Part shown: positions 180 through 3,106 of the stretch, piece by piece
Layout of the letters: each line of letters opens with the position of its first letter
How positions within the stretch are numbered: the first letter of the stretch is position 1
Notes under the pieces: generated by a model
Told to the model about the DNA's origin: nothing
Databases searched by the model: none
The model's input: only the letters and a program-made list of their open reading frames with translations
Assembly (NCBI RefSeq): GCF_022267315.1
Contig: NZ_JAIKLE010000006.1
Location: 62,001 to 126,000 of the forward strand
Source of the DNA: Maribellus maritimus
Lineage (GTDB): Bacteria > Bacteroidota > Bacteroidia > Bacteroidales > Prolixibacteraceae
DNA: 64,000 nt
Reading direction: 5' to 3'
Position numbers and translations under genes: made by a program

Positions 180-806
180 TTATTTCTTTATTTCCTCAAT
201 AAACTGTTTCAATTTTTCAATATTTTTTAATCCGGGTTCATCTTCAAAACCACTGTTTAAATCCACTCCGGCAATTTGAGGATGTTCAATTTTTTTTATT
301 TCAGCCACGTCTTCCTGTTTAATTCCTCCGCTCAAAAAGAAAGGAGTGTTTCTGTTATATTTATCCAATATTTCCCAGTTAAATTTCTTTCCGGAACCAC
401 CGGGCAAATTTGTTTTTGTATCAAATAAAAAGTAATCGGCAATTCCCTCAAACGGTTTGGTTTTATGAAACTGGAAAGTTTCATCTACGCGAAAAGCCTT
501 AATGATTTTTAATCCCTGATTTTTTAAAATCTGACAGGTTTTTGGATTTTCCTTGCCGTGCAACTGCACCCATTCAAAATCCAGATTTTTTGCCAAAGCC
601 ATAATTTCAAAAGCATTCTCATCGACAAAAACACCTACTTTGGGCTTTGCCGAATTGAATAAACCCGTTTGTGGATTTTCCCCCACATATCTTTTCGATG
701 GCGGATAAAAAATGTAGCCCAGCAAATCAACCGGAAGTTCTTCAACCGCTTCCCGGTTGGAGGAAAATTTCATTCCGCAAACTTTTATTTTTAATTCATT
801 TTTCAT
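180..806 (-). CDS. trpF: Phosphoribosylanthranilate isomerase
   Basis: Amadori isomerase converting N-(5'-phosphoribosyl)anthranilate to CdRP in tryptophan synthesis. The 208-aa length fits a stand-alone TrpF barrel. Visible family marks are the KVCGM strand with the catalytic Cys at residue 10, the general acid Asp at 129 in LFDTKT, the phosphate-binding SGG at 159-161 and GVDLNSG at 180-186. It starts at the ATG at 806. It lies downstream of trpC, but the two are separated by about 420 bp holding a GIY-YIG gene and two repeat copies. In most Bacteroidota operons trpC and trpF are adjacent, so the interruption looks acquired (inference). Confidence 0.95.
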   Translation of the reverse strand: MKNELKIKVCGMKFSSNREAVEELPVDLLGYIFYPPSKRYVGENPQTGLFNSAKPKVGVFVDENAFEIMALAKNLDFEWVQLHGKENPKTCQILKNQGLKIIKAFRVDETFQFHKTKPFEGIADYFLFDTKTNLPGGSGKKFNWEILDKYNRNTPFFLSGGIKQEDVAEIKKIEHPQIAGVDLNSGFEDEPGLKNIEKLKQFIEEIKK

Positions 807-825
807 AATTGCAGCCTAAGATTGC

Positions 826-858
826 TGTCATTTCGACGAGTAAACGAGGAGAAATCTG
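826..858 (+). repeat. Repeat family 1, copy A (left flank of GIY-YIG gene)
   Basis: Short repeat opening TGTCATTTCGA and closing GAGAAATCTG on the plus strand. It begins 19 bp after the trpF start codon and ends 3 bp before the stop codon of the GIY-YIG gene. An inverted copy (1191-1224) lies at the other side of that gene, and a close head-to-head pair lies at 2038-2118. The middle of copy A (ACGAG..ACGAGGAG) is almost the same as in the copy at 2038. Confidence 0.85.
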
Positions 859-861
859 TTT

Positions 862-1164
862 CTAAAATGCATCATAAATTTCAGCATTTAAAAATTTCCA
901 CTCTGGATTAAATTCAATTATCAATTTCACTTTTTTCTCACGCCTCCATTTTTTTAATTCCTTTTCCCTTGAAATTGCATCATTAATGTCTTGAAAATGT
1001 TCATAATAAATCAGATAATGACAATTGTATTTTTCAGTAAATCCAGACAAAAGTTCGTTTTCATGTTCATAAATCCTACGTTGCAAGTCGTTTGTAACTC
1101 CAATATAAAGAACTGTTTTATTCTTATTCGTTACGACGTAAACGAAGTAATTATGGTCTCTCAT
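862..1164 (-). CDS. Small GIY-YIG nuclease-family protein inside the trp operon
   Basis: A 100-aa single-domain GIY-YIG protein of the kind related to the UvrC N-terminal module and YhbQ/UPF0213. Seen: FVYVVT at 7-12 (the GIY strand), YIG at 20-22, Arg-Arg at 29-30 followed by a Tyr and a His, and a Glu at 67 in SREKELKKW, the usual metal-binding position. Nothing follows the domain, so DNA specificity would come from the fold itself or a partner. The gene is transcribed with the trp genes and sits exactly between two inverted copies of a short repeat, with its stop codon 3 bp from copy A and its start 26 bp from copy B. No function in tryptophan synthesis is expected. A role in spreading or processing the flanking repeats is inference; general DNA repair is an alternative. 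Confidence 0.9.
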   Translation of the reverse strand: MRDHNYFVYVVTNKNKTVLYIGVTNDLQRRIYEHENELLSGFTEKYNCHYLIYYEHFQDINDAISREKELKKWRREKKVKLIIEFNPEWKFLNAEIYDAF

Positions 1165-1190
1165 TTAGTTTATTTCATTTCTTTATTTTA

Positions 1191-1224
1191 CAGATTTCTC
1201 AGTCGTTCCTCCTTCGAAATGACA
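1191..1224 (-). repeat. Repeat family 1, copy B (inverted right flank of GIY-YIG gene)
   Basis: Read on the minus strand it opens TGTCATTTCGA and closes GAGAAATCTG, the same ends as copy A, but in opposite orientation. The centre differs (AGGAGGAACGACT). It lies 26 bp upstream of the GIY-YIG start codon and 5 bp from the trpC stop codon. Copies A and B thus bracket the gene as terminal inverted repeats of a ~400-bp unit. Confidence 0.85.
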
Positions 1225-1229
1225 AGTTA

Positions 1230-2024
1230 TTATTGCACCTTCAACTCCTCAATAAAATTTTTACAGGTTTTCCCCGGGTTTTCTGTTTTCATAAATGTTT
1301 CTCCGATTAAAAATCCACTGAATCCGTTTTCGCGTAAATATTGAATCTCTTTTGGACCGGCCAACCCGCTTTCTGAAATTTTCACAAAATGTTCAGGAAT
1401 CAGTTTTGCCAGTTTTACTGAAGTCTCAACATCTACATCAAAAGTTTTAAGATTACGATTATTCACACCGACAATGTCAACAAAATTGTTTACTTTTTCC
1501 AATTCTTCGGCGTTGTGAACTTCCATTAAAACTTCAAGCCCCAAACTTTTTGCTTCCTTTGTCAGCATTTCGGCCTGCTTTTTTTCGAGACAGGCAGCAA
1601 TGAGTAAAATAACATCGGCACCATACGCTTTTGCCTCGACCAATTGATAGGAATCAATCATAAAATCTTTTCGAAGAATTGGAATATCGGGATTTGTTTC
1701 ACGCGCTTTTACCAGATTGGATTGTGAACCGCCAAAAAACCTTGATTCTGTTAAAACCGATAATCCTGCTGCCCCCGCTTCAACATACGCTTTTGTGACC
1801 TCTTCCACTTTTGCCGAGAGATTTATATCTCCTTTTGAAGGCGACTTCTGTTTAAATTCAGCAATAATTCCCGAGGACCCTTTTTTCAGCAAACTTGCCT
1901 TAAGCGAATTACATTCGCGGTCGAATCCGGGAACCTCTTTTAACATTTCCAAATCAACCACTGTTTTTTGGTGAGCCACCTCTTCTTTTTTGGCTTCGAT
2001 AATTTTGTCGAGAATTGTCATCAT
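1230..2024 (-). CDS. trpC: Indole-3-glycerol phosphate synthase
   Basis: Cyclises CdRP to indole-3-glycerol phosphate. The 264-aa length is normal for a monofunctional TrpC barrel. Motifs visible in order: IIAEFKQKSPSKG (residues 53-65, with the catalytic Glu/Lys and the phosphate-binding SPS), LRKDFMID, GVNNRNLKTF, ISESGL and IGETFM. The first two codons are both ATG, so either could serve. It lies between trpD and the GIY-YIG insertion. An inverted repeat pair occupies the whole 95-bp spacer to trpD. Confidence 0.95.
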   Translation of the reverse strand: MMTILDKIIEAKKEEVAHQKTVVDLEMLKEVPGFDRECNSLKASLLKKGSSGIIAEFKQKSPSKGDINLSAKVEEVTKAYVEAGAAGLSVLTESRFFGGSQSNLVKARETNPDIPILRKDFMIDSYQLVEAKAYGADVILLIAACLEKKQAEMLTKEAKSLGLEVLMEVHNAEELEKVNNFVDIVGVNNRNLKTFDVDVETSVKLAKLIPEHFVKISESGLAGPKEIQYLRENGFSGFLIGETFMKTENPGKTCKNFIEELKVQ

Positions 2025-2037
2025 TTTATTTTTAATC

Positions 2038-2118
2038 TGTCATTTCGACGAGTTTGCGAGGAGAAATCTTCTGATTGAAACAGATTTCTCACCTTCGTAC
2101 CTCAGATTCGAAATAACA
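2038..2118. repeat. Repeat family 1, head-to-head pair C/D between trpD and trpC
   Basis: Copy C (2038-2073) reads TGTCATTTCGA...GAGAAATCT on the plus strand. Copy D (2081-2118) is the inverse, ending TTCGAAATAACA on the plus strand, with only a 7-bp spacer between them. The whole can fold into a long imperfect hairpin. It ends 1 bp before the trpD stop codon and begins 13 bp before the trpC start. Its ends match copies A and B, so it looks like a compact, gene-less form of the GIY-YIG unit. Confidence 0.85.
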
Positions 2119-2119
2119 A

Positions 2120-3106
2120 CTAATTTATCACTGCTTTTAATTTCTCCAGCGCTTTCCCACTTTTTAATGATTCGGCTGCAATTTTAACACATTCAATTAA
2201 ATCTTTTTCAGGAAAAACAACATTCAATCCGAGCGCTGCATTGGCCACCACAACATTGGTCTGTTCATTTGTTGCTTTTCCTTCCAACACATTCATAAAT
2301 ATTGTTGCAGCTTCTTCTACTGAATTTCCACCAAAAAGTTTTTCAGGAGTAATTTTTTCGAACCCAAATTCGGAAGGAGAAATATTGCCCTCTTTTTTAT
2401 TATTCGCAAAATGCGTGTCGGCAGTCAATGAAACCTCATCGTAGCCATCGTTGCTGTTGACAATCATAAAATTCACATCCATAGTTTTGTATACATTTTT
2501 GTAATGGTTGAAATTTTCATCGTTGTTCACACCCAGCAACTGATATTTTGGCGAAGAAGGATTTATCATCGGGCCTAAAATGTTGAAAAAAGTGGGCACT
2601 TTTAATGCGCGGCGAACCGGTGCAATATGTTTCATCGCCGGGTGAAAAAGAGGCGCATGCATAAAACAGAAATTTCCTTTATCTAAATCGGTCTTTAATT
2701 TTTCAATATCGTTGCTGAATTTATAGCCCAAATATTCCAGAACATTCGAAGAACCGCTTGTTGAAGTCGCTGCATAATTTCCATGTTTGGTCACGTTTAC
2801 ACCGGCACCTGCAATAACAAAACAAGCCAGCGTTGAAATGTTAAAAGTATTTTTTCCGTCACCACCGGTGCCAACAACGTCAATCGCGTTATAATCATCG
2901 AGGTTAGTAATAACGCTCAATTCAGCCATTGCCTCACGAAAACCGGCTAACTCTTCCGATGCCAGCGGACGCATTTTAAAAACAGTTAGAAAAGAGGCAA
3001 ACTCAGCATCACTGTGTTTTCCATTTCCAACCTCCATTAAACTTGATTTTGCCTGCTCGCGAGAAAGTATATTTCCTTCAAAAAGGTATTGTAATGTATC
3101 TTTCAT
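2120..3106 (-). CDS. trpD: Anthranilate phosphoribosyltransferase
   Basis: Joins anthranilate and PRPP. 328 aa, normal for a stand-alone TrpD. The PRPP/Mg-binding GTGGDGKNTFNIST loop is visible, followed by KHGNYAATSTSGSSNVLEYLG-like residues (the KHGN and SGS positions of the family) and NILGPMINP. It starts 10 bp after the trpG stop codon, so the two are surely cotranscribed. The stop codon lies against a repeat pair. Confidence 0.95.
   Translation of the reverse strand: MKDTLQYLFEGNILSREQAKSSLMEVGNGKHSDAEFASFLTVFKMRPLASEELAGFREAMAELSVITNLDDYNAIDVVGTGGDGKNTFNISTLACFVIAGAGVNVTKHGNYAATSTSGSSNVLEYLGYKFSNDIEKLKTDLDKGNFCFMHAPLFHPAMKHIAPVRRALKVPTFFNILGPMINPSSPKYQLLGVNNDENFNHYKNVYKTMDVNFMIVNSNDGYDEVSLTADTHFANNKKEGNISPSEFGFEKITPEKLFGGNSVEEAATIFMNVLEGKATNEQTNVVVANAALGLNVVFPEKDLIECVKIAAESLKSGKALEKLKAVIN

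Follow-up and report, generated by a model that had tools for sequence, protein, structure and literature searches.

A GIY-YIG nuclease gene lying inside a bacterial trp operon, together with the two inverted repeats that flank it, probably constitutes one dispersed unit, in which a repeat-specific nuclease forms a nuclease-based counterpart of the REP-plus-RAYT pairing. Sequence comparisons across many bacteria show that nuclease genes of this kind travel with a matching repeat of their own, which they probably recognise. They are therefore strong candidates for the enzyme that a large class of bacterial repeats is missing.

Overall organization of the unit

The window, the whole 64-kb stretch of DNA analysed here, covers positions 62001-126000 of one contig in a genome of 7.33 Mb and 201 contigs. 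In the window, the nuclease gene and its flanking repeats separate trpC from trpF (Table 1), and trpG and trpE, named by reading only, lie upstream of trpD on the minus strand. Repeat A has the outer end TGTCATTTCGA and the inner end GAGAAATCTG; repeat B carries the same ends on the opposite strand, so that the two are mutually inverted with TGTC facing outward. The nuclease stop codon lies 3 bp from repeat A. The sequence thus confirms the gene between two inverted repeats with common ends, and the 3-bp spacing, as originally predicted.

Table 1. Features of the nuclease unit and the surrounding trp genes, in window coordinates
Feature	Position	Strand	Basis
GIY-YIG nuclease gene, 100 aa	862..1164	-	PF01541 match; active-site residues conserved in relatives; confident model
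Repeat A, 3-prime arm of unit, alpha type, core CGAGTAAACGAG	826..858	+	pattern match
Repeat B, 5-prime arm of unit, beta type, core AGGAGGAACGACT, inverted to A	1191..1224	-	pattern match
Third repeat, alpha type; first member of the trpC-trpD gene-less inverted pair	2038..2070	+	pattern match
Degenerate inverted partner of the third repeat; the pair forms one hairpin when folded	2081..2118	-	sequence and folding
trpF, downstream of unit	180..806	-	best models are phosphoribosylanthranilate isomerase, under their cut-offs
trpC, upstream of unit	1230..2024	-	NF001377 above cut-off
trpD, adjoins the gene-less pair	2120..3106	-	TIGR01245 above cut-off

The pattern TCATTTCGA-N4..34-GAGAAATC has three exact matches in the window, compared to 0.00 expected from 100 shuffles. 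Each repeat takes the form TGTC-ATTTC ... GAAAT-C with a CTG tail. The original prediction overlooked the gene-less pair (2038-2118). The inversion of repeats A and B stands; the single repeats in the window are only weak palindromes, with a 5-bp ATTTC/GAAAT core and a loop of 15-16 nt, and when folded alone they are not stabler than shuffled sequences (z +1.1 and +0.7). The inverted pair is stabler than shuffles when folded (z -2.1).

The gene encodes a predicted GIY-YIG nuclease

The window protein matches PF01541 with 59.2 bits against a gathering cut-off of 22.6. GIY-YIG and T5orf172 are its only Pfam matches, and the Pfam search found no HUH tyrosine transposase domain in it. The putative catalytic residues Tyr20, Gly22, Arg30 and His34 are present in all 168 relatives, Glu67 in 167 and Asn86 in 165 of them. 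The structure model has a pLDDT of 93.1, and a Foldseek search with this model matched UPF0213, Slx1 and UvrC domains, with an E-value below 0.001 for UPF0213 only. The nearest solved proteins, by both sequence and fold, are the UPF0213 members 1zg2 and 1ywl in the PDB, yet the likeness is weak (E 1e-9 and 4e-7). Altogether, the domain, the active-site residues and the fold fit an apparently intact nuclease of the GIY-YIG superfamily.

Two other identities were considered and rejected. A phage or intron homing gene is ruled against by the lack of any relative at E 1e-5 in 50,697 phage records and by the position between operon genes. As to a defence gene, PADLOC gave a weak homing-endonuclease match alone (E 0.0045).

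Family genes and repeats co-occur across phyla

Relatives of the protein were found at E ≤ 1e-5 in 90 of 149 genomes of the class. The first set comprises the best places by E-value, down to 2.8e-21 (leaving out G046:C39:43755 and the weaker class matches), in addition to 20 stretches from a genus search, two of which are weak arrays included for comparison, giving 84 stretches with 86 genes. The strict motif [C/T]GTC-ATNNN ... N'N'N'AT-C occurs 255 times in these 1.018 Mb, compared to 16 for the reversed control. Its density is 5.6 per kb at less than 100 bp from the 86 genes and 2.5 per kb at 100-200 bp, and falls to about 0.05 per kb (0.03-0.07; 44 motifs in 836 kb) past 600 bp, an enrichment of about 100-fold beside the genes. 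Within 300 bp, the strict motif lies on both sides of 33 genes, on one side of 27 and on neither side of 26, compared to 0, 30 and 451 of 481 control ORFs away from the genes. With a looser motif the counts become 42, 24 and 20 for the genes, against 1, 46 and 434 for the controls. Independently of any motif, the flanks are alike (score ≥16, either orientation) in 44 of 75 main-family genes and in 13 of 479 controls. Among nine lower-scoring genes, eight of which come from two tRNA-linked loci, one has the motif.

The second set, mostly cross-phylum, comprises the best 80 of 579 confirmed places (named genome loci) and 12 of 25 records from a plasmid collection, with 96 genes; many of its hosts are metagenome bins, whose individual names may be wrong. 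In this selection of the best 80 of 579 places plus 12 of 25 plasmid records, the strict motif lies on both sides of 52 genes, on one side of 26 and on neither side of 18; it occurs 407 times, compared to seven for the reversed control, and at 6.75 per kb within 100 bp against 0.14 per kb past 600 bp (110 motifs in 801 kb), an enrichment of about 50-fold. By record title, cases with motifs on both sides include Deltaproteobacteria (L192), Nitrospirae (L219), Clostridiales (L246), Parcubacteria (L227), Cyanobacteria (L243), Verrucomicrobiia (L228) and Pseudovibrio (L250).

Whether relatives are always flanked by such repeats was left to be checked by the original prediction. Most are, and not all: repeats lie near 66 of the 86 first-set genes by the looser motif, some repeat evidence accompanies 69 of the 75 main-family genes (six show neither motif nor flank likeness), and the strict motif lies near 78 of the 96 second-set genes (best 80 of 579 places plus 12 of 25 plasmid records). 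Some of the genes without a motif within 300 bp, 20 and 18 in the respective sets, have other repeats. At the level of sequence, family genes and [C/T]GTC-AT...AT-C repeats co-occur across phyla.

Individual loci illustrate the arrangement. In Azospirillum lipoferum, a repeat pair, the gene and a second repeat pair lie in this order between sufB and sufC. In Sinorhizobium meliloti, an internally deleted nuclease copy that keeps its C-terminal end lies directly upstream of the gene. The relative in Neisseria gonorrhoeae, which scores 110.7 bits with the family profile, is surrounded by dispersed repeats of the form CGTCATTCCCGC...GCGGGAAT.

Several loci were observed in passing. In G001 (L060:7113-8059), a nuclease gene is followed by an identical tandem copy at a distance of 599 bp, and the repeats there are of the ATTCC type. 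On a Planktothrix agardhii plasmid (L271:6007-6291), a nuclease relative is surrounded by DISARM and restriction genes, its neighbours being mmeI-like and drmA. In G169 (L179:6304-8115), Pfam shows a GIY-YIG domain joined in frame to the 6-phosphogluconate dehydrogenase that follows it, and frames of 602-603 residues like this fusion occur in G152 (L181) and G168. A second GIY-YIG clade, without TGTC repeats, adjoins tRNA genes at L186, L187, L344, L113, L345, L348 and L110, in genomes G157, G150, G155, G174, G137 and G163. Partial tRNA copies follow the gene in L344 and L187, and L186 holds six tandem gene copies. At further loci, tRNA genes were found at five of eight weak-match loci compared to none of three main-clade loci.

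Repeat type follows the nuclease lineage

The stem of the repeats varies among ATTTC, ATTCC, ATTGC, ATNCT and other types, and 13 genomes, such as G153, hold nucleases of different stem types. The repeat upstream of a gene has the stem type of the one downstream in 31 of 33 cases in the first set and in 43 of 52 in the second (best 80 of 579 places plus 12 of 25 plasmid records). On a tree of 168 proteins, from which 14 of 182 were dropped for low score and in which 33 have no stem label, the stem type changes 52 times, compared to a shuffled mean of 90.1, with none of 200 shuffles as low. The nearest nuclease in another host family has the same stem type in 64 of 135 cases (shuffled mean 18.5, maximum of 2000 shuffles 35), and the nearest under another class label in 66 of 135, with the plasmid-collection records treated as a single host and with coarse class labels. 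By these sequence comparisons, the inner stem bases track the nuclease lineage more than the host. Of the original suggestion that the protein may recognise or move the repeats, recognition is well supported by co-variation, whereas that the nuclease moves them is what we infer.

The strongest correlations between residues and stem bases fall at protein positions 72-74 and 77. KWR at 72-74 goes with ATTTC in 23 of 29 proteins, KWK with ATTCC in nine of 10, AGS or GGS with ATTGC in 15 of 16, and Leu or His at 74 with T at stem base 5 in 13 of 14, the proteins counted being related by descent. A test restricted to independent changes had one to three supported pairs, too few for significance, and was not significant. 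In the model, residues 73-74 lie between the Glu67 helix and the next helix. Stem bases 4 and 5 are probably read by residues 72-74, where the chain bends at the end of the Glu67 helix.

The unit is dispersed and decays within the genus

Among 22 same-genus trpC-trpF junctions, the window included, 15 measure ≤95 bp and 20 ≤145 bp, and four congeners have junctions as tight as -7 to -4 bp; the long ones are the window (423 bp) and L078 (790 bp). The unit therefore does split two normally adjacent genes, as had been claimed. The nuclease gene occurs at trpC-trpF in the window only (1/22) and, among 21 trpD-trpC junctions, in the congener G164 only, a rarity by which it is not a stable member of the trp operon. 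Neither of the two refuting outcomes named in the original prediction, relatives mostly without repeats and a stable place in the operon, was thus observed. At the trpC-trpF junction of five congeners (G153, G156, G160, G161 and G172) there is a gene-less inverted pair with ends as in the window. The comparison of syntenic trp operons proposed earlier thus yielded tight junctions in congeners but neither a clean empty site nor a target duplication, the same-genus relatives being too divergent at base resolution.

The window's nuclease clade occupies five sites in the genus, namely trpC-trpF, trpD-trpC and three more, each common to two to four close genomes; a sixth site is in a Draconibacterium. 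At the pgl site, four of 23 genomes have the gene, 11 have a junction of 2 to 38 bp, and G160 and G172 retain a single arm. Both nearest arms could be classed in eight of 11 units, and all eight have one alpha and one beta arm, with the gene running from beta to alpha in five and in reverse in three, all at one site. No gene-less pair, among 14 distinct ones, combines two arms of the same type. Gene-bearing and gene-less copies have terminal inverted repeats in common, and internally deleted or decayed copies lie between the same repeats in G155 (internally deleted), G064 (decayed, between two matching repeats) and S. meliloti. The different sites in related genomes, the gene-less pairs and the internally deleted units point, by comparison, to a dispersed unit. 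Dispersal and decay can be read from these sequences, and from them we infer the act of movement. Same-species variants in Sinorhizobium medicae plasmid records differ in length with breakpoints inside the repeats, so these are not clean insertions.

A single gene of this kind is intact in the window's genome. Contig C99 holds a decayed relative (L002:1460-1810) enclosed by inverted repeats of a different type, TCATTCCC...GGGAATGA, and 1.1 kb beyond it comes a gene-less TCATTCCC-type pair.

Other inverted repeats, such as the CACCCTTCGACTACGCTCAGGGTGAC and CCCCTCAAGGGG types, occupy trpC-trpF and trpD-trpC junctions of L064, L071, L081 and L083. At an ABC-permease site, some congeners have a GIY-YIG unit; in ten others (L306, L307, L308, L310, L311, L318 and a further four), AGCT-rich inverted repeats enclose a four-helix-bundle gene, which matched TIGR02436 in the single case examined. 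This may be a second example of a small gene with a repeat of its own.

Repeat copies across genomes

The window's genome has nine copies of TGTCATTTCGA-N4..34-GAGAAATC and none of the backwards control. In the genus, the nine genomes with the window's clade carry more copies (9-74) than the 16 without it (0-97, median 6; p 0.003, host phylogeny uncontrolled). Across the class, 48 of the 90 genomes that have a relative of any kind contain ATTGC repeats, as against nine of the 59 that have none (p 2e-6, host phylogeny likewise uncontrolled). Repeats far outnumber nuclease genes. There are exceptions: G155 has 97 copies and its internally deleted unit, G064 has 14 with its decayed nuclease, and G163 has 45 with only a short nuclease fragment at a contig edge, besides tRNA-linked genes. 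G047 has eight copies and no nuclease match. The single contig of G040 holds 421 ATTGC repeats, with a weak match in a 460-residue frame only and no credible intact family nuclease, indicating either a lost enzyme or other means of spread.

Comparison with known systems

CGTC-tagged REPs, often with TGTC, were defined by Di Nocera et al. in 2013 and are described there in five phyla, apparently without a dedicated transposase; their hosts include Bacteroidetes, rhizobia, Azospirillum and Neisseria, with A. lipoferum, S. meliloti and Neisseriae among those named (PMC3733652). By the definition given there, a CGTC or TGTC tag is followed by a stem starting with AT, the stem being 8-9 bp and the loop 4-5 nt, mostly with a CCA tail (PMC3733652). 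The window repeats resemble them in the tag, the AT-initial stem and the inverted dimers, but differ in the 5-bp core, the loop of 15-16 nt and the CTG tail instead of CCA. The repeats beside the A. lipoferum and N. gonorrhoeae relatives look like canonical CGTC-REPs in stem and loop. The accessible portion of a 2025 REP survey does not contain the word nuclease (PMC12306157), nor that of a 2018 survey of HUH enzymes the term GIY (PMC6006769).

A literature search, mostly on material short of full texts, yielded no paper linking a GIY-YIG nuclease to REP repeats. The unit resembles the RAYT/REPIN system (TnpA-REP with GTAG-tagged REPs), where an enzyme gene likewise lies between copies of a repeat that is scattered over the genome, commonly in inverted pairs, and where the repeat type matches the enzyme lineage. 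They differ in that RAYT is an HUH tyrosine transposase with a GTAG tag, whereas the unit has a GIY-YIG enzyme and a TGTC or CGTC tag (TGTC in the window). Compared to free-standing GIY-YIG homing endonucleases, the unit has the same catalytic domain and selfish-gene flavour, but it lacks a match in the phage records and an intron, and has dispersed repeats instead of one allelic site. Similar to insertion sequences and MITEs, it has terminal inverted repeats on gene-bearing and gene-less copies.

A 2025 paper from the Veyrier group reportedly describes Ssn, GIY-YIG site-specific single-strand nucleases that cut single-stranded DNA at specific sequences; the Neisseria member is said to act on a repeat of hundreds of copies and to affect transformation. 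We take the window nuclease family to be Ssn, and the gonococcal relative is presumably the Ssn gene. Both comprise small GIY-YIG proteins, each with its own genomic target sequence, and the gonococcal relative lies among CGTCATTCCCGC repeats. If so, repeat recognition itself is probably known and the window gene would be a new member, and the original view that no such system had been firmly described is probably out of date. The Ssn work reportedly concerns cutting specificity and transformation and is not known to cover mobile units, gene-less pairs or a residue code; as far as the literature was searched, the anatomy of a mobile unit, its decay products and a candidate recognition code are new.

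Proposed mechanism and alternative explanations

We propose that the nuclease binds its repeat, probably as a single strand or as the hairpin made by the inverted pair, which might arise during replication, DNA uptake or repair, and nicks it close to the tag. The nick could then start repair or strand transfer by which the unit, or its ends only, is copied to other intergenic sites; alternatively, it is the gene that would be copied, into a repeat pair already in place. Deletion would account for the gene-less pairs, on which the same enzyme may still act. Several points speak against reading the nuclease and repeats as one unit, namely the lack of a clean insertion, the repeats without an intact nuclease in G040 and G163, the family genes without a motif, the non-significant test for independent changes of the residue code, and single repeats that barely fold. 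Moreover, a gene in either orientation relative to its arms is not what a simple transposon predicts.

The reported role of Ssn in Neisseria transformation lends itself to an account in which the nuclease serves its host and no transposon is involved: the genome repeats would be cutting sites by which an Ssn-type enzyme controls uptake or recombination of incoming single-stranded DNA, and gene and repeats would spread together by recombination between repeats. The great excess of repeats over nuclease genes fits this, as do the S. medicae variants, which resemble recombination or deletion between repeats. We nonetheless consider it unlikely, since in congeners the unit, its unlike arms unchanged, turns up at different sites, and pairs that have its ends but no gene fill the same junctions, which looks like an element and its decay products. 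It is also conceivable, and considerably less probable, that another enzyme spreads the repeats while the GIY-YIG gene is a homing passenger that copies itself into existing repeat pairs. The position of the gene between unlike arms in either orientation, the gene-less pair in five congeners at the very junction that holds the gene in the window, and the abundance of repeats without a nuclease in G040 would all suit a passenger; the tracking of nuclease lineage by stem type across host families and the several repeat types of multi-nuclease hosts are patterns that it need not show.

Least credible of all, to the point of being negligible, is an accidental neighbourhood of the nuclease with terminators or other generic intergenic palindromes. 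Although the repeats are intergenic, with one so close to a stop codon in the window, this is already contradicted by the enrichment in both sets and by type matching across hosts, and a different GIY-YIG clade sits at tRNA genes without such repeats. Returning to the dispersed unit, a bolder extension may be entertained tentatively, with confidence short of even: nucleases of this family might be, in many phyla, the dedicated enzymes that the CGTC/TGTC REP superfamily has seemed to lack, spreading REPIN-like pairs and themselves by single-strand nicking, with a short code at residues 72-74 reading the inner stem bases, in a form of transposition without a DDE or HUH enzyme.

Implications

The presence of a lineage-matched nuclease beside such repeats in Bacteroidota, rhizobia, Azospirillum, Neisseria and many uncultured lineages makes the question of the missing transposase directly testable. 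If these enzymes move the repeats, they would represent another way of spreading short elements, and the correlation between residues and stem bases would predict which repeat a given nuclease acts on.
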